Origin: Terriglobia bacterium
Lineage (GTDB): Bacteria; Acidobacteriota; Terriglobia; Terriglobales; Acidobacteriaceae
Direction of reading: 5' to 3'
NCBI GenBank assembly: GCA_032252755.1
Contig: JAVUPY010000029.1
Coordinates: 62,001-126,000, forward strand
Length of the DNA stretch: 64,000 nt
The position numbers were made by a program, and so were the translations under genes. The notes beneath the pieces were generated by a model. It saw only the letters and a list, made by a program, of their open reading frames with translations. It was not told the origin of the DNA and did not search any database. Of the stretch, positions 27,652 through 56,392 are shown piece by piece (positions within the stretch are counted from its first letter, which is position 1; the number at the start of each line of letters is the position of its first letter).

Positions 27652-28083
27652 CTATGCGAGCTTCGCGTCCAGTGTAATGTTGGTGTTGTTTTTGAAGAGC
27701 TTGGAAACCGGGCATCCCGCTTTGGCTGCGGCGGCCGCCTGCTCGAATTTGGCCTTGTCTGCTCCCGGAATCGTCGCTGTCAGATCCAGGTGGATCTCCA
27801 CGATCGCAAAACCACCATCCGTTTTATCGAAACTGACCGTTGCTTCGGTCTCGATGCTTTGCGCCTTCATCCCCGCGTCTTCCAGTTGCTTCGAGAGTGC
27901 CATGGAGAAGCAGCCGGCGTGAGCCGCCGCAATCAACTCCTCCGGATTGGTGCCAACCCCGTTTTCAAATCTTGTCTTAAAAGAATATTGCGTGTTCGAG
28001 AGCACTCCGCTCGCACTCGAGACGGTTCCCTTGCCGTCCATCAATCCACCTTCCCAGTGGGCACTTCCCTTTCTCTTGATCAT
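27652..28083 (-). CDS. osmC: OsmC-family peroxiredoxin
   Basis: A 143-aa OsmC protein (thiol-dependent hydroperoxide reductase family). It has the two redox cysteines in AAAHAGCFSMALSKQLE and KAGCPVSKLFKNN and the N-terminal KRKGSAHWEGGLMDGKG typical of OsmC rather than Ohr. Length is standard. Single gene on the minus strand; no regulator nearby. Confidence 0.93.
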   Translation of the reverse strand: MIKRKGSAHWEGGLMDGKGTVSSASGVLSNTQYSFKTRFENGVGTNPEELIAAAHAGCFSMALSKQLEDAGMKAQSIETEATVSFDKTDGGFAIVEIHLDLTATIPGADKAKFEQAAAAAKAGCPVSKLFKNNTNITLDAKLA

Positions 28084-28283
28084 TCTCGTTCACCCTCCAC
28101 CACAGGATTGGTGCGCTACTTCGCTCGGCGCACACGAGCCAGCCTTCTAAGATATCACTGCGGAACGCACTTCAACTGCGCTCACGGCCAAAACACGAAC
28201 ATCGACTGGGAAATTCTTAGCGACGAGTCCCGTATGTTTTGCCCTGAGAATCTCTGTTCTGTGCGATGAACCGGTCGATGGAA

Positions 28284-28385
28284 TCAGTAGAAATCGGAAC
28301 AACTCAGAAAAAACCCGCAGTTCGGACAGACGAGTTTGCAGTGATTCTCATGGAGTTGAGAGGAGCAGGTGGGGCAGTGCAGCAT
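28284..28385 (-). CDS. Tiny zinc-ribbon protein (33 aa)
   Basis: The frame is open from 28544, but only the last 33 residues look like a conserved protein: [20 protein letters not shown] and [13 protein letters not shown]. The paired knuckles C-x2-C and C-x2-C form one complete zinc ribbon, with an extra conserved-looking His-x-Cys and SCSD end. Similar tiny ribbon proteins occur in Acidobacteriota as far as I recall. The upstream extension ([18 protein letters not shown]) looks non-coding. Function unknown. Confidence 0.5.
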
Positions 28386-28590
28386 CGCCTGCTTCTGGGC
28401 AGAATACGTCGTCGTATCTTTTGAGGTGACTTGAGTACCCGATTTGTCGAAATTCCGGTTTTCCACAACCACTCCAAAAGTACCCAAAAGTGCCATCGTC
28501 CATAGGTACACCATAGGACGGGGTACCTTTTCGTAGTCACCCATTATATGGGTACAGACGACTTACGATTTCGGAACAGAAAAATTTTTT

Positions 28591-28606
28591 AGTTACTAAA
28601 GTAACT
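28591..28606. promoter_or_regulatory. Palindrome in the promoter of the repeat protein
   Basis: AGTTAC and GTAACT (28591-28596/28601-28606) flank TAAA in an A/T-rich stretch 60 bp before the 28665 start; TATACT follows at 28615. This may be an operator beside a -10 element. Confidence 0.35.
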
Positions 28607-28664
28607 GGAAATTTTATACTTCGCCAGATTCACCAATAACCCATTTGTACCCAGGAGACTCCTC

Positions 28665-29393
28665 ATGAAGTACTTCGTGTGGTTGGCGACCCTTTCCCTT
28701 TTGATCCTCGGCATCTACTGCGGAACCATGATTCAGGTCAATCAGCAGGTTCAGGCAGCGATGTTTAGCGAAGGAACATTCCCCACCCCAGACATGCACC
28801 AGGGATCTCCCGCACAACTCGCCGCAGAGCGAGGCGAAGGTTCCTATCCGACTCCTGCTTGCAGCCCCTCGAAGCCCGGATGCATACCGTTTGTCGTTGA
28901 GCCCAAGTTGCAGGCCGGCGAAGGTTCCTATCCGACTCCTGCTTGCAGCCCCTCGAAGCCCGGATGCATACCGTTTGTCGTTGAGCCCAAGTTGCAGGCC
29001 GGCGAAGGTTCTTATCCGACTCCTGCTTGCAGCCCCTCGAAGCCCGGATGCATACCGTTTGTCGTTGAGCCCAAGTTGCAGGCCGGCGAAGGTTCCTACC
29101 CGACACCTGCTTGCAGCCCTTCGAAGCCCGGATGCATACCGTTTGTCGTCGAGCCCAAGTTGCAGGCCGGCGAAGGTTCGTACCCGACTCCAGCTTGCAG
29201 CCCTTCGAAGCCCGGGTGCATACCGTTTGTCGTCGAGCCCAAGTTGCAGGCCGGCGAAGGTTCGTACCCGACTCCAGCTTGCAGCCCCTCGAAGCCCGGA
29301 TGCGTACCGTTTGAGAGGCCCGCGACTCGCATCGCTCTTCTTGGAGAAGGTTCTGCCGCTGCTCCGTTTGAGATGCCGAGTGGTATGAACTAA
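28665..29393 (+). CDS. Exported protein built of six near-identical 28-aa repeats
   Basis: A 242-aa protein with an N-terminal hydrophobic segment (VWLATLSLLILGIYCGTMI, uncleaved anchor or signal) and GGAGACTCCTC before the ATG. From residue 57 it consists of six copies of a 28-aa unit, GEGSYPTPACSPSKPGC followed by I/V-PFVVEPKLQA, the last one degenerate. Each unit has two cysteines separated by SPSKPG, so each could close a small disulfide loop. The short C-terminal part (LLGEGSAAAPFEMPSGMN) repeats the GEGS start. No family is recognised. Possible roles are surface structure, metal binding or peptide precursor; none is shown. Confidence 0.75.
   Translation: MKYFVWLATLSLLILGIYCGTMIQVNQQVQAAMFSEGTFPTPDMHQGSPAQLAAERGEGSYPTPACSPSKPGCIPFVVEPKLQAGEGSYPTPACSPSKPGCIPFVVEPKLQAGEGSYPTPACSPSKPGCIPFVVEPKLQAGEGSYPTPACSPSKPGCIPFVVEPKLQAGEGSYPTPACSPSKPGCIPFVVEPKLQAGEGSYPTPACSPSKPGCVPFERPATRIALLGEGSAAAPFEMPSGMN
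28833..29320 (+). repeat. 84-bp tandem repeat, 5.8 copies
   Basis: Units start at 28833, 28917, 29001, 29085, 29169 and 29253, exactly 84 bp apart and differing at only a few, mostly synonymous, positions. They encode the 28-aa repeats of the 28665 protein. The near-identity suggests recent expansion or gene conversion. Confidence 0.92.
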
Positions 29394-29605: not shown

Positions 29606-30421
29606 ATGCACCTCCACTGGCCTGAGTACCTTATCTGGTTTTCCGCACCAGCGATCCAGTTCCTTATCGCGGTGACCATGCTGCGTCGCAATCTGCGGCG
29701 GGAATACCCGATGTTCTTTAACTACACGGTATTCCAGGTAATCAGCCAATTAGTGATGTTCATCCTCTGGCATTGTTCCTATCCCATTTATTACAGGGGC
29801 TATTGGACAACAAGCGCTATTGGCATATTCCTCGGCTTTGGAGTAATTCGAGAGATTTTCCTGGTGTCCTTCCGGCCATATGAGGCGCTCCGCGAGTTCG
29901 GAGAAATGATTTTTAGTTGGTGCCTTCTCCTGCTGGTTCTCATCGCTTTGCTTACCGCCTTCATTCAGACGGACCCAGGAAATGGCCGGATCTATATTGC
30001 GCTGGCGACCGGAGAGCGAAGCGTTCGTATCCTCGAATGCGGACTGGTCTTTTTCGTTTTCGTTTTTTCAAAGTATCTGGGAATCAGCAACAAGCACCAA
30101 TTATTTGGTATCGCGCTCGGGTTTGGCGTTTTCTCCTGCATCTCGATGACAGCCTTGCTGCTGTTTAACCAGTACACCGCAATTTCAATGTTCACGATGC
30201 GGATTACCATCAGTACTACCTATTTCCTCTGCACGGTCGTGTGGCTCGGGTACTGTCTGGCGCCCATTCCTGATCGTCGCACCGAAGTGCTGCCGCAGTC
30301 GGAGCGCTGGAATGTCGCCCTCTCCAACATCATGAACGTGCCTGAGCCGGACGGCTTCATTAACAGCATCGATCGGACAGTCGAGACCCTGCTGGGCAAG
30401 CAGAATGGCCGCGCGCAGTAG
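29606..30421 (+). CDS. Polytopic membrane protein, unknown function
   Basis: A 271-aa protein with about seven hydrophobic segments, starting EYLIWFSAPAIQFLIAVTML and including FSWCLLLLVLIALLTAFI and TTYFLCTVVWLGYC, ending in a charged cytoplasmic tail. Such 7TM proteins are frequent in Acidobacteriota beside signalling genes. Its right-hand neighbours are a receiver protein and two histidine kinases, so a sensory link is possible but unproven. No catalytic motif is seen. Confidence 0.75.
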   Translation: MHLHWPEYLIWFSAPAIQFLIAVTMLRRNLRREYPMFFNYTVFQVISQLVMFILWHCSYPIYYRGYWTTSAIGIFLGFGVIREIFLVSFRPYEALREFGEMIFSWCLLLLVLIALLTAFIQTDPGNGRIYIALATGERSVRILECGLVFFVFVFSKYLGISNKHQLFGIALGFGVFSCISMTALLLFNQYTAISMFTMRITISTTYFLCTVVWLGYCLAPIPDRRTEVLPQSERWNVALSNIMNVPEPDGFINSIDRTVETLLGKQNGRAQ

Positions 30422-30628
30422 GGCAGGCAACTTTCCCTTCTAAAAACCTCTTCCCAACTGTGTCCGCTCACAGACAGACGAGCACCGCCCGGATGTTATC
30501 GTATTGGTCAACCGGTCACCTCCCGGTGTAACTACCCACGCTGCGAAAGCTGGGATATAGTGTGCCTCACCTCGGGCAAGAACCGGCTCGCGGCAGTTCT
30601 CGCCGAGTGCATGTTTTGGATTTGTCTT

Positions 30629-31015
30629 ATGCCGGAAATCCGTGGGAACGAAACGTTGCTCGTAGTGGAAGACCAGCCGGAGATCTGTGAAGTGGTCACC
30701 ACCATGCTGCGCGGATTCGGTTTCCATGCACTCGCCGCAACCACGCCTTCCGAGGCTCTTCGCATTGCATCTGACAGCGCGACCCGCATCGACCTGCTGA
30801 TCACAGATGATTTCATGCCCGAAATGCGCGGGCCTGAGTTGGCGATACGCATCCGCCAAATGCGTCCCGGCATCCGCGTCCTGTTCATGACCGGATCTCT
30901 TGAGAACGAGAAACTGGAATCTTTTCCCGACGCGGACCTCATCGAGAAGCCGTTTTATCCGCAAGATCTCGGCAAGAAAGTTCGCGAAGCCCTTGACCGC
31001 CGCCGGGCGGCTTAA
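30629..31015 (+). CDS. Response-regulator receiver domain protein
   Basis: A single-domain receiver of 128 aa from ATG 30629 (the frame is open from 30560). All receiver hallmarks are present: acidic residues in TLLVVEDQPEI, phospho-acceptor Asp in LLITDDFMPEM, Thr in VLFMTGSLENE and Lys in LIEKPFYPQDL. No output domain. It is convergent with the PAS kinase at 31032, a likely cognate pair, with a 16-bp gap between them. Confidence 0.9.
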   Translation: MPEIRGNETLLVVEDQPEICEVVTTMLRGFGFHALAATTPSEALRIASDSATRIDLLITDDFMPEMRGPELAIRIRQMRPGIRVLFMTGSLENEKLESFPDADLIEKPFYPQDLGKKVREALDRRRAA

Positions 31016-31031
31016 TTCTCCGAAGAAAACT

Positions 31032-32162
31032 CTAGGCTACTTTTGAAACGTGCCCCGGCGCTTTGCCGAGATCACGGTTTGGCGGGCGCAGTGGAAGGAA
31101 AACCGAGAAGCAGGTTCCGCGGTGCATTTTCGTGCGGAACCGAATTGTTCCTCCGTGCCGGTGCACAATCTGGCGTGAAACCCAAAGGCCCAGCCCAGTT
31201 CCCTGCTCTTCTTTCGTGCTGAAAAATGGATTGAAGATTTGCCCGCGGACAGGCTCGGGGATACCCGCGCCGTCGTCAATAACCAGGATACGGACCCCCC
31301 TCACTTTCAGGTCTTTCCAAGAGCGCGAGGGATGAAGTGCGACGAGAAGATGCCCACCTGCCCCGACAGCTTCCACCGCATTCCTTACCAGGTTGGCGAA
31401 GACCTGCCGGATTTCTACCGCATGAGCCAGTATCTTCCCGGGGGTCCGATAGCGCCGGTCCACCGTAGCCCTGGTGCTCTGGATCTTTCGTTGGTACATA
31501 TCGAGAACATCATCCATGACGTCCTGCACCGCAAATTCCGCGGGAAAACTGACAACACGGTTGAACGCGAGCGTCTGTCGCACGATCTGCGTTATGCGCC
31601 TCAACTCCTCCTGGGCATAGTGAACCAGGGTCGCATCCTCGGGCGAAAGCTCGCGTTGTGACAATACGAACAGCACATTTCCGATCGACTCGAGAGGATT
31701 GTTGATTTCGTGAGTGATTGTCGCGGCGAGCCGTCCGACCGAAGCCAGGCGTTCCGAGAGTCGAAGAGCTTCTTCGGCGCGCCTCGTTTCGGTAATGTCG
31801 CGGCCGATGGCCGAGGCACCTTTCAAGCGGCCCTTATTGTCGTAGATCGGCGAAATGGTGAGCGATATATTGAGGAGCCGGCCGTCCTTGGTTCGCCGCA
31901 CCGTTTCGTAGTGATCAAGCCTCTCACCCAGGCGCACCCGGCGCATGATCTCCACGATTTCGTCCCCGCGATCCGGCGGAGAGATCATGGAGATATGTCT
32001 TCCTATCGCTTCCTTGGCTGAATAACCGTACAGACGCTCCGCCCCCTTGTTCCAACTCGTGATGGTGCCGTTCAGGTCTTTGCCGATTATGGCATCATCC
32101 GTGGATTCAACAATGGAGGCGAATTCCGAGCGAAGGCTATCTGTTAGGTTCTCCGAGTTCAT
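31032..32162 (-). CDS. PAS-domain sensor histidine kinase (cytoplasmic)
   Basis: A 376-aa kinase from ATG 32162 (a GTG at 32180 is possible). An N-terminal PAS domain (ASIVESTDDAIIGKDLNGTI to IGRDITETRRAEE, residues about 15-130) has no membrane segment. The HisKA H-box is LAATITHEINNPLESIGNVL. The ATPase domain has the N box (VFANLVRNAVEAV), G1 (VIDDGAGIPE), F box (IFNPFFSTKEEQ) and G2 (GTGLGLWVSRQIV). Neighbouring single-domain receiver at 30629 is a likely partner. It is divergent from a related kinase at 32448. Confidence 0.93.
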   Translation of the reverse strand: MNSENLTDSLRSEFASIVESTDDAIIGKDLNGTITSWNKGAERLYGYSAKEAIGRHISMISPPDRGDEIVEIMRRVRLGERLDHYETVRRTKDGRLLNISLTISPIYDNKGRLKGASAIGRDITETRRAEEALRLSERLASVGRLAATITHEINNPLESIGNVLFVLSQRELSPEDATLVHYAQEELRRITQIVRQTLAFNRVVSFPAEFAVQDVMDDVLDMYQRKIQSTRATVDRRYRTPGKILAHAVEIRQVFANLVRNAVEAVGAGGHLLVALHPSRSWKDLKVRGVRILVIDDGAGIPEPVRGQIFNPFFSTKEEQGTGLGLWVSRQIVHRHGGTIRFRTKMHRGTCFSVFLPLRPPNRDLGKAPGHVSKVA

Positions 32163-32447
32163 TATGGCTTTAGGGCCCACTCTAGCTGTTGTCCAGCTCT
32201 GTTAGGTTGGATGCAAGAACGGCCATTCGGGGCTAGCTTTCTGCAAATACACGGTCTGCACCAGCCATTGCACGATTGTTCGCCCACGTGTTGTACGACA
32301 GTGCGCTTTTCTGGATTGTCCATTTTGCACTTCCGAGCGGAGCAAGAATTCTGGAAGTGGTGTCCGTTGCAACCAGTAACTTTGATGTAAGATCACTACA
32401 CTTGAGATTGTTTCTTGCACAAAGACCCTCCGATTCGGAGCTGATGG

Positions 32448-34013
32448 ATGCAGGACTGGGGAGACACTTCCAACTGGATTGCCCGGTTTGCGGGTTGGAG
32501 TGCTCCGAGCGTGCGCTCACCGTGGCTCCGTTACGGACTTAGCCTCCTCTTCACTGTCGCTGTCCTTCTATTGCGTGCTTGGCTTGAGCCGCTTTTGGGT
32601 GAGCATCAACCCTATTTTGTCCTCTATGCGGCTGTCTTCTTCGCGTCCTGGTACGGCGGGCTGGTGCCAGCGATTCTGGCCGTTCTCTTGGGTGGCTTCG
32701 TAGCAACGTACAACTGGGTGGTGCCTTTTCGGGAATTGCACGCCGGCACCATCGCCAATTGGATGGAACTCGCGACCTATATCGTCGTGAGCCTATTCAT
32801 CATCGGTCTGGGAGAAGGATATCGCCGCGCGTTGGAGTCTTCCCAGCGGGAGAGTCTCAAACTCCATCGTTCCGAAGAACAATTGCTCTCCAGCCAGACC
32901 CGTCTGCGGATGACGCAGCAGGCGACGAAGTCTGGCACCTGGGAATGGAAGATCACGACCAACACGTATTACTGGTCGCCGGAATATTACTCGTTGCTGA
33001 ACTTGAAGCCATGGATCGAGCCGACGTACCAGAACTGGCTTGGCTCCATGTACACGGAGGATCGCGACCGCGCGCATCTGGCATTGCGCAATGCGCTGGA
33101 AACCGGCCGGGAGTATGCCGAATTCGATTTCCGCGTGGTCGATCCCGAAACGCGAATCCGCTGGATTCGTTCACGCGGCAGCATTCTGCGCGACGAGAAG
33201 GGTGTTCCGATCCTCATGCTCGGCGTTGCCATGGACATCACGGACCGCAAGCAGTCGGAATCGGTGCTGATCCAAACGGAAAAACTCGTTTCGGCTGGGA
33301 GAATGGCCGCAACGATCGCGCATGAAATCAACAATCCTCTGGAGTCAGTCACCAACCTCGTCTTTCTCGCGCGCAACAACCTGCAGGAACCACAGGCGGC
33401 AGCCAGTTTCCTCCAGATGGCGGAGCAGGAGTTGGCGCGCATGTCGCACCTGACCCGGCAGACGCTCGGGTTCTATCGCGAAACCGCGGCGCCGCACAAA
33501 ATGCGTATTTCCGAGCTGTTGCAGGAACTGCAAATGCTCTATGGGCCTAAGCTCAAGAAGAAGGAAATAAAACTCGAACTGGTGCTGCGCAATGAAATCG
33601 AGATTTCGGCTGTGGGTGGCGAAGTGCGCCAGGTGTTCGGAAACCTAATCAGCAACAGCATCGACGCCGTGGAGCAAAATGGCGAGATCATAATCGTAGT
33701 TTCCGAAAATAAGAACTGGGGTTCGACGATGATGCCGGGCATGCGCGTCACCGTCATCGACAACGGCCCCGGGATCAAGGCTTCGTTGCGCAAGCGCATC
33801 TTCGAGCCGTTTTTCACGACAAAGAAAGATGTGGGCACCGGGCTGGGGCTGTGGGTAACACGTAACCTGGTAGAAAAACACGGCGGCGCGGTGCGCATCC
33901 ATAGCCGCACCACGCCAGGAAAGAGCTATACTGCTTTCAAAATCTTCCTGCCGATGATACCAATCGACGCCTCGCGGCAAGCAGCGCACGCGACACGACT
34001 CCGCGCCGGGTAG
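32448..34013 (+). CDS. Membrane histidine kinase with DUF4118-like and PAS domains
   Basis: A 521-aa kinase. The N-terminal about 110 residues contain four hydrophobic segments (YGLSLLFTVAVLLLRAWLEP, YFVLYAAVFFASWYGGLVPA, ILAVLLGGFVATYNW, YIVVSLFIIGLGEGY), like the KdpD DUF4118 module. A short coiled coil and a PAS_3 domain (TRLRMTQQATKSGTWEWKIT to GVAMDITDRKQSE) follow, then H-box ATIAHEINNPLESVTNLVFL and a complete HATPase domain (VFGNLISNSIDAV, VIDNGPGIKAS, IFEPFFTTKKD, GTGLGLWVTRNLV). The H-box closely matches the divergent kinase at 31032. The signal is unknown. Confidence 0.92.
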   Translation: MQDWGDTSNWIARFAGWSAPSVRSPWLRYGLSLLFTVAVLLLRAWLEPLLGEHQPYFVLYAAVFFASWYGGLVPAILAVLLGGFVATYNWVVPFRELHAGTIANWMELATYIVVSLFIIGLGEGYRRALESSQRESLKLHRSEEQLLSSQTRLRMTQQATKSGTWEWKITTNTYYWSPEYYSLLNLKPWIEPTYQNWLGSMYTEDRDRAHLALRNALETGREYAEFDFRVVDPETRIRWIRSRGSILRDEKGVPILMLGVAMDITDRKQSESVLIQTEKLVSAGRMAATIAHEINNPLESVTNLVFLARNNLQEPQAAASFLQMAEQELARMSHLTRQTLGFYRETAAPHKMRISELLQELQMLYGPKLKKKEIKLELVLRNEIEISAVGGEVRQVFGNLISNSIDAVEQNGEIIIVVSENKNWGSTMMPGMRVTVIDNGPGIKASLRKRIFEPFFTTKKDVGTGLGLWVTRNLVEKHGGAVRIHSRTTPGKSYTAFKIFLPMIPIDASRQAAHATRLRAG

Positions 34014-56238: not shown

Positions 56239-56262
56239 CTACGTTCCGGGAGCATTTTTGCT

Positions 56263-56392
56263 CACATTCTCAAAGCAGCTTCCTCGGTCACATTTTCAAA
56301 GCAGCTTCCTCGGTCACATTCTCAAAGCAGCTTCCTCGGTCACATTGTCAAAGCAGCTTCCCCGGTCAAATTTTCGAAGCAGCTTTCTGTTC
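56263..56392. repeat. 26-bp tandem repeat, five copies
   Basis: Unit CACATTCTCAAAGCAGCTTC plus CTCGGT, starting at 56263, 56289, 56315, 56341 and (degenerate) 56367. Copies differ at one or two positions. It sits within the palindrome field next to the transposase gene. All three frames are open for part of it, but no protein is likely. Confidence 0.8.

Follow-up and report, generated by a model that had tools for sequence, protein, structure and literature searches.

Introduction

In the Gram-positive AgrD/AgrC, ComX/ComP and CSP/ComD systems, a short secreted peptide is encoded beside a multi-pass membrane protein, and in receptors of the AgrC, ComP and ComD type a histidine kinase domain is part of the receptor chain itself. 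The yeast alpha-factor acts through a seven-transmembrane (7TM) receptor, Ste2. Its precursor is among the fungal Kex2-processed repeat proteins, in which an export signal precedes a short core repeated in frame (PMC7329392). Several cores are also joined in the microviridin precursor AMdnA, a multi-core RiPP with three cores (PMC5934393).

The locus described here recalls each of these systems in part. As with alpha-factor, its precursor has an N-terminal export signal (by hydrophobicity only) followed by in-frame repeats, and its partner is a 7TM protein; it differs from a Kex2-processed system in being bacterial, in having a Cys-pair core and adjacent genes, and in showing no sequence relation that we could see. 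The dibasic Kex2 sites KR, RR and KK do not occur in its repeat unit, GEGSYPTPACSPSKPGCIPFVVEPKLQA. Like the Gram-positive pheromone systems, it places a predicted-exported peptide gene next to a membrane protein gene; unlike them, it has a 7TM partner without a kinase, from a distinct membrane family, and multi-copy precursors. With multi-core RiPPs it shares several core peptides per precursor, whereas it has an N-terminal hydrophobic export segment and a membrane protein as partner; clustering of the neighbours at 61 loci and in the window gave no recurrent modifying enzyme beside the pairs. We do not claim membership of the pair in the Kex2-type, pheromone or RiPP families, and the leading matches in the open-licence literature held no report of such an acidobacterial system.

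Here we report that this peptide/membrane-protein pair is real, unannotated and family-wide, and that the repeat gene of the window (the whole stretch of 64,000 nucleotides that we analysed) is one multi-copy form of it. We hold with high confidence that a secreted peptide family is genetically paired with a 7TM protein. The explanation that we propose as a whole, a multi-copy exported precursor with a dedicated 7TM partner, most likely its receptor, and with copy number as dose, has in our estimate a probability of about 0.5.

Results

A repeat gene with Cys-paired units

The features of the locus are as follows, with the basis of each assignment in brackets.

28665..29393, + strand: putative multi-copy peptide precursor gene, 242 aa, ATG start (open reading frame and repeat array)
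28665..28760, + strand: hydrophobic export segment, residues 1–32, MKYFVWLATLSLLILGIYCG..., signal peptide or anchor (sequence)
28767..28814, + strand: Cys-less unit 5′ of the array, SEGTFPTPDMHQGSPA (sequence)
28833..28916, + strand: unit 1, GEGSYPTPACSPSKPGCIPFVVEPKLQA (unit alignment)
28917..29000, + strand: unit 2 (unit alignment)
29001..29084, + strand: unit 3 (unit alignment)
29085..29168, + strand: unit 4 (unit alignment)
29169..29252, + strand: unit 5 (unit alignment)
29253..29312, + strand: unit 6, shortened to 20 codons (unit alignment)
29337..29390, + strand: Cys-less unit 3′ of the array, LLGEGSAAAPFEMPSGMN (sequence)
29606..30421, + strand: partner gene, 271-aa predicted seven-helix membrane protein, N-out/C-in, of no named family (homology, AF2 model, loop charge)

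The array covers 28833–29313 with a period of 84, 5.7 copies, 96% matches and no indels (Tandem Repeats Finder, score 857), and its units start in exact 84-bp steps at 28833, 28917, 29001, 29085, 29169 and 29253, so that the exact period and very uniform DNA described in the sequence-only reading of the window hold. That reading had also counted six nearly identical 28-residue repeats; five are indeed complete and share one protein sequence, GEGSYPTPACSPSKPGCIPFVVEPKLQA, whereas the sixth retains only 20 of the 28 residues (GEGSYPTPACSPSKPGCVPF). Units 1–5 differ at seven codons, every one synonymously, and their pairwise differences amount to 37.0 synonymous versus 0 nonsynonymous. All eight of the eight changes inferred among the units are silent (p ~1.3e-5, given a silent probability of 0.246 per random single change). 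Since the units differ only silently, the array exceeds what chance or a copying artefact would give.

A hydrophobic N-terminus is directly visible in the sequence, and the export signal was judged by hydrophobicity only. By eye, its position matches that of the export segments of single-copy precursors, and a single-sequence AF2 model of the repeat protein, uninformative at a pLDDT of 53.4, has a helix at residues 2–35 over this segment and a short strand pattern that recurs at low confidence. Both Cys-less units of the precursor, SEGTFPTPDMHQGSPA and LLGEGSAAAPFEMPSGMN, are relatives of the first half of the repeat unit, and the trailing one is similar by eye to a separate Cys-less peptide gene, VVIGEGSAPMPTTLPPAMNASN, of genome G199. 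As the sequence-only reading had supposed, the repeat protein belongs to no applicable family in Pfam or NCBIfam. The Pfam matches hNIFK_binding (0.0095) and DUF2180 (0.018) were both below the cut-off, and the PHROGs matches, at best 6.3e-9, were rejected as sums over the repeats because no single stretch passes. PADLOC found nothing. The intergenic stretch before the precursor gene (28476–28653) contains GGTAC/GTACC boxes and imperfect inverted repeats, which are weak candidates for regulator sites.

Single-copy relatives

When the 398 genomes of the family were searched with a shortened repeat-protein query, one clear relative was found (L005 in G199, E 4.4e-7); a further 14 genomes besides the window's own, at E 5e-4 to 0.009, were counted as noise, and a related-locus search with the shortened query found none. 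The route to the peptide family was synteny with the adjoining 7TM gene. The relatives reached in this way are predicted-exported ORFs of ~40–60 aa on the same strand as the 7TM gene, each ending in a single copy of the motif, as in ..GEGSYPTPICAPGGTCK. Single-copy peptides lie just upstream of the 7TM gene in genus g31 (MSKTLWVILAALMFAGTYSISTSSIDNPMDPGEGSYPTPICAPGGTCK) and genus g24 (..ALGEGSSPVPLCQPGTDCRP), among numerous further examples, and a second peptide/7TM pair is present in the window's own genome (G000:C41), where a 50-aa exported ORF ends in GGGSPTCDPAVQKCS.

The 108 precursors that satisfy the strict definition given below, at least one of which (from L073) is clearly a false member, have a median length of 53 aa, and 98 of them have a Cys spacing of 4 to 7 residues. 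Peptides beside the 7TM gene are Cys-less and Pro-rich in L102, L108, L131, L156, L158, L160, L163 and L187; the Cys pair is not universal, and a loop therefore cannot be essential across the whole family. Near-identical peptide cores are common to separate g35 genomes (L152, L174 and L176). Compared with the PDB, the peptide profile reached an E of 0.68 at best. In some g63 genomes (L058, L060 and L033), the Cys-array gene is immediately preceded by another gene for an exported peptide; this second gene reads ..VVIGEGSAPMPTTLPPAMNASN in L030/L060, and its core is Cys-less or nearly so.

Pairing of the peptide and 7TM genes

We examined 140 distinct membrane genes from the collected loci for a flanking peptide ORF on the same strand, defined strictly by a hydrophobic N-terminus with a basic residue, followed by Pro and a Cys pair. 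Such an ORF flanks 94 of the 140, as against 4/140 on the opposite strand and 6/350 distant windows. The Fisher p of 9e-56 for this pairing is too small, because the genomes and loci are related. Flanks were complete (900 bp upstream and 600 bp downstream) for 87 membrane genes, of which 69 have a strict peptide (27 upstream, 41 downstream, 1 on both sides) and 18 have none. A peptide is nevertheless present by eye beside 12 of these 18, often Cys-less and missed by the pattern or the distance limit, so that 6 of the 87 have none by either approach (L094, L096, L132, L172 and the second copies in L131 and L088). In the reverse direction, 26 of the 30 top-scoring matches of the peptide profile adjoin a 7TM gene, and the remaining four lie at contig ends. 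A looser peptide criterion was dropped, as it gave positives in the controls (16/80 on the opposite strand and 49/184 distant windows), and the downstream flank was discarded as a control, since the peptide gene sits there in another clade.

In a FastTree phylogeny of 137 membrane proteins, gene order changed once, with the pair intact; the order labels (56 upstream, 59 downstream, 22 proteins unlabelled) were assigned by eye for 24 of the 115 labelled proteins, and the deep branches of the tree are weak, with long branches meeting. Two fragments under 50 bits were left out, as were, from the tree, rows under 150 aa. That the pair survived a rearrangement is hard to explain unless the peptide and the 7TM protein act together. 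Genome G049 has eight membrane paralogues, seven of them with their own distinct exported peptide upstream.

The seven-helix partner

The next gene after the repeat precursor gene (29606–30421), which the sequence-only reading had passed over as a partner, encodes the 7TM protein. Its homologues occur at E <= 1e-30 in 150 of the 398 genomes of the same taxonomic family, and in a phylum-wide sample of 297 genomes all 30 with the gene at E <= 1e-10 fall within that family. Of 94 confirmed contig matches, the best 80 are all titled as acidobacterial. The window's protein has no Pfam match up to E 1 and no NCBIfam family, and Pfam detects no kinase or effector domain in its 271 residues.

An AF2 model built with 50 sequences (pLDDT 88.7, pTM 0.82) shows seven long helices followed by two short ones at the C-terminus. 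Lys and Arg account for 31% of residues in inner loops and 3.5% in outer loops; given this excess, the N-terminus should be outside. By model and positive-inside count, both of them predictions, the protein would thus share seven helices and an outside N-terminus with GPCRs and rhodopsins. Conservation is 0.667 in the inner half versus 0.434 in the outer half, and a variable outer side with a conserved inner side would fit a receptor whose ligands are diverse and whose output is of a single type. We take the 7TM protein, tentatively, to be the receptor of the peptide.

In Foldseek, every one of the 50 matches listed for the model is a GPCR, a rhodopsin (bacteriorhodopsins included) or a designed GPCR-like fold; with E no better than 0.034, none is significant, the Ste2 chain (7ad3_A) at rank five among them. 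Structural alignment gave Z up to 13.1 (rmsd 4.2 over 210 residues), close to what helical bundles attain in any case. VIA-align named no significant family for the model, and the 7TM profile A3 had 0 matches up to E 10 among PDB sequences. HisKA_7TM (PF16927) resembles the partner as a bacterial seven-helix sensor, and one HisKA_7TM kinase lies elsewhere in the window's genome; the partner differs in having no kinase domain in its chain. None of 30 members of the 7TM family matched PF16927, and in a profile–profile comparison with HisKA_7TM by hhalign, using seven family members from related genomes, E was 0.46 and the probability 0.1%.

Two routes to more copies

The sequence-only reading had named confinement of the repeat to this assembly as grounds for its rejection; in-frame Cys arrays are found, besides the six units of the window, in the g63 genomes L059 (3 units), L027 (at least 2, its contig beginning inside the array so that the count is a lower bound) and L060 (with a masked stretch). 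Other peptides form in-frame arrays in L190 (2), L102 (2), L163 (3) and L187, the last with eight copies of a Pro-rich unit within a 240-aa ORF. Whole peptide genes are repeated in tandem in L146 (3), L147 (6) and, with 2–4 copies, in L140, L150, L152, L153, L173, L174, L176, L178 and L181; the cores of these tandem genes (2–6) are mostly identical. Parsimony on the membrane-protein tree puts the minimum at seven state changes each for in-frame arrays and tandem genes, the two sets having been assigned by eye. That a single short peptide should gain copies by two routes is predicted if a released peptide is dosed by copy number, but not if the repeat protein is a chain of mini-domains.

The three tandem copies of G147 (L146) have a pS of 0.426 and a pN of 0.025 per site, with the last 15 residues identical in all three. 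The resulting pN/pS of ~0.06 indicates purifying rather than diversifying selection. Silent and replacement differences among the tandem copies of L147 are 0.360 and 0.042 per site, respectively.

Several g63 contigs (L027, L028, L032, L034, L222, L224, L225 and L229) end at or inside the peptide array, and copy number there is therefore probably underestimated.

Discussion

We propose that a precursor with six Cys-paired copies (core GEGSYPTPACSPSKPGC) and two Cys-less variants would be made and exported by the Sec route, and that it would be cleaved between units, probably where each unit begins (..LQA/GEGS.., the slash marking the cut). In the oxidising periplasm, the two Cys residues could then close a small loop. 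The adjacent 7TM protein, which according to alignment and model turns its variable face outwards and its conserved face inwards, most likely senses the peptide and may signal to a cytoplasmic partner. Peptide dose would be set by copy number, raised repeatedly via in-frame units or tandem genes. That the window gene encodes a precursor cut into units appears probable to us. In L159 and L072, the core directly follows an Ala-ending site of the signal-peptidase type (VWA/DGPVPLCVPGKPC and AHA/DGGPIPMCGPKSNC, respectively), and the window unit starts right after KLQA. As Ala or Ala-Pro immediately precedes the acidic-Gly core in only 48 of the 108 strict precursors, the cleavage site is not uniform, and the maturation site is therefore a proposal.

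The peptide could also be a structural or regulatory subunit of a transporter, channel or enzyme formed by the 7TM protein of the same cell, with no intercellular signal. Pairing that stays constant through a change of gene order would suit such a subunit, as would a 7TM core that is conserved and has no recognised signalling domain, but multiplication both in frame and as tandem genes is not readily explained by it, and we consider it unlikely. A narrow bacteriocin, with the 7TM protein as the immunity protein that protects the producer and with more copies giving more yield, is to our mind improbable too. A short secreted Cys-paired peptide in tandem copies beside a dedicated membrane gene fits such a cassette equally well; the tandem copies are, however, under purifying and not diversifying selection, near-identical cores occur in separate g35 genomes, the 7TM homologues are spread over a taxonomic family, and the cytoplasmic side of the 7TM protein is well conserved, seemingly beyond the needs of an immunity protein.

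The sequence-only reading had offered two views of the repeat protein, a mini-domain chain and a precursor of multiple peptide copies. The single-copy relatives and the in-frame and tandem copies strongly favour the precursor. Uniform units and the strand pattern that recurs, at low confidence, in the single-sequence AF2 model would suit a 242-aa surface or adhesive protein that works uncut, but relatives hold one unit, or several as separate genes, and the model is too poor to count; we regard an uncut chain as quite improbable. A functionless chance repeat or an assembly artefact is highly improbable, for although repeats are prone to mis-assembly and in some g63 relatives a contig end or a run of N falls at the array, units 1–5 differ silently only, arrays and single copies occur in other genomes, and the peptide gene is paired with the membrane gene.

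Acidobacteria are plentiful in soil and difficult to culture, and a family-wide peptide/7TM pair without a Pfam or NCBIfam name would provide a peptide signal that can be tested in them. Multi-copy precursors have arisen repeatedly along two routes, which amounts to a natural experiment in peptide dosage. Should the 7TM protein be the receptor, it would be a kinase-less, peptide-sensing seven-helix protein and its mode of bacterial signalling directly testable. A broader reading, which we put forward as doubtful, would see here a bacterial peptide-hormone system with multi-copy precursors, kinase-less GPCR-like receptors and parallel channels in one genome, independent of alpha-factor/Ste2.

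Neighbourhood of the pair

The sequence-only reading had proposed a search of relatives for protease or maturation genes. Clustering of the neighbours at 61 loci and in the window gave no protease, transporter or kinase gene beside all pairs; apart from the membrane gene, no family was common to them all. Two gene families lie near the 7TM gene in 42 of the 61 loci (L055–L134), one ~2.4 kb upstream on the + strand and one 1.5 kb downstream on the − strand; they are not beside all pairs and are absent from the window.

Just after the 7TM gene, the window encodes a receiver-domain protein and two PAS histidine kinases (30560–34013), whose link to the pair is unproven because they are not recurrent neighbours of other pairs. 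On the − strand at 27652–28544 are genes for a peroxiredoxin of the OsmC family and a small protein that has a zinc ribbon at its C-terminus, and OsmC and zinc-ribbon genes also adjoin the peptide genes in L005, from another genus. Elsewhere in the window, a 26-bp tandem repeat (56262–56385; 4.8 copies, 92%), whose period is not a multiple of three, sits between two GC-rich stretches, each nearly an inverted copy of the other.
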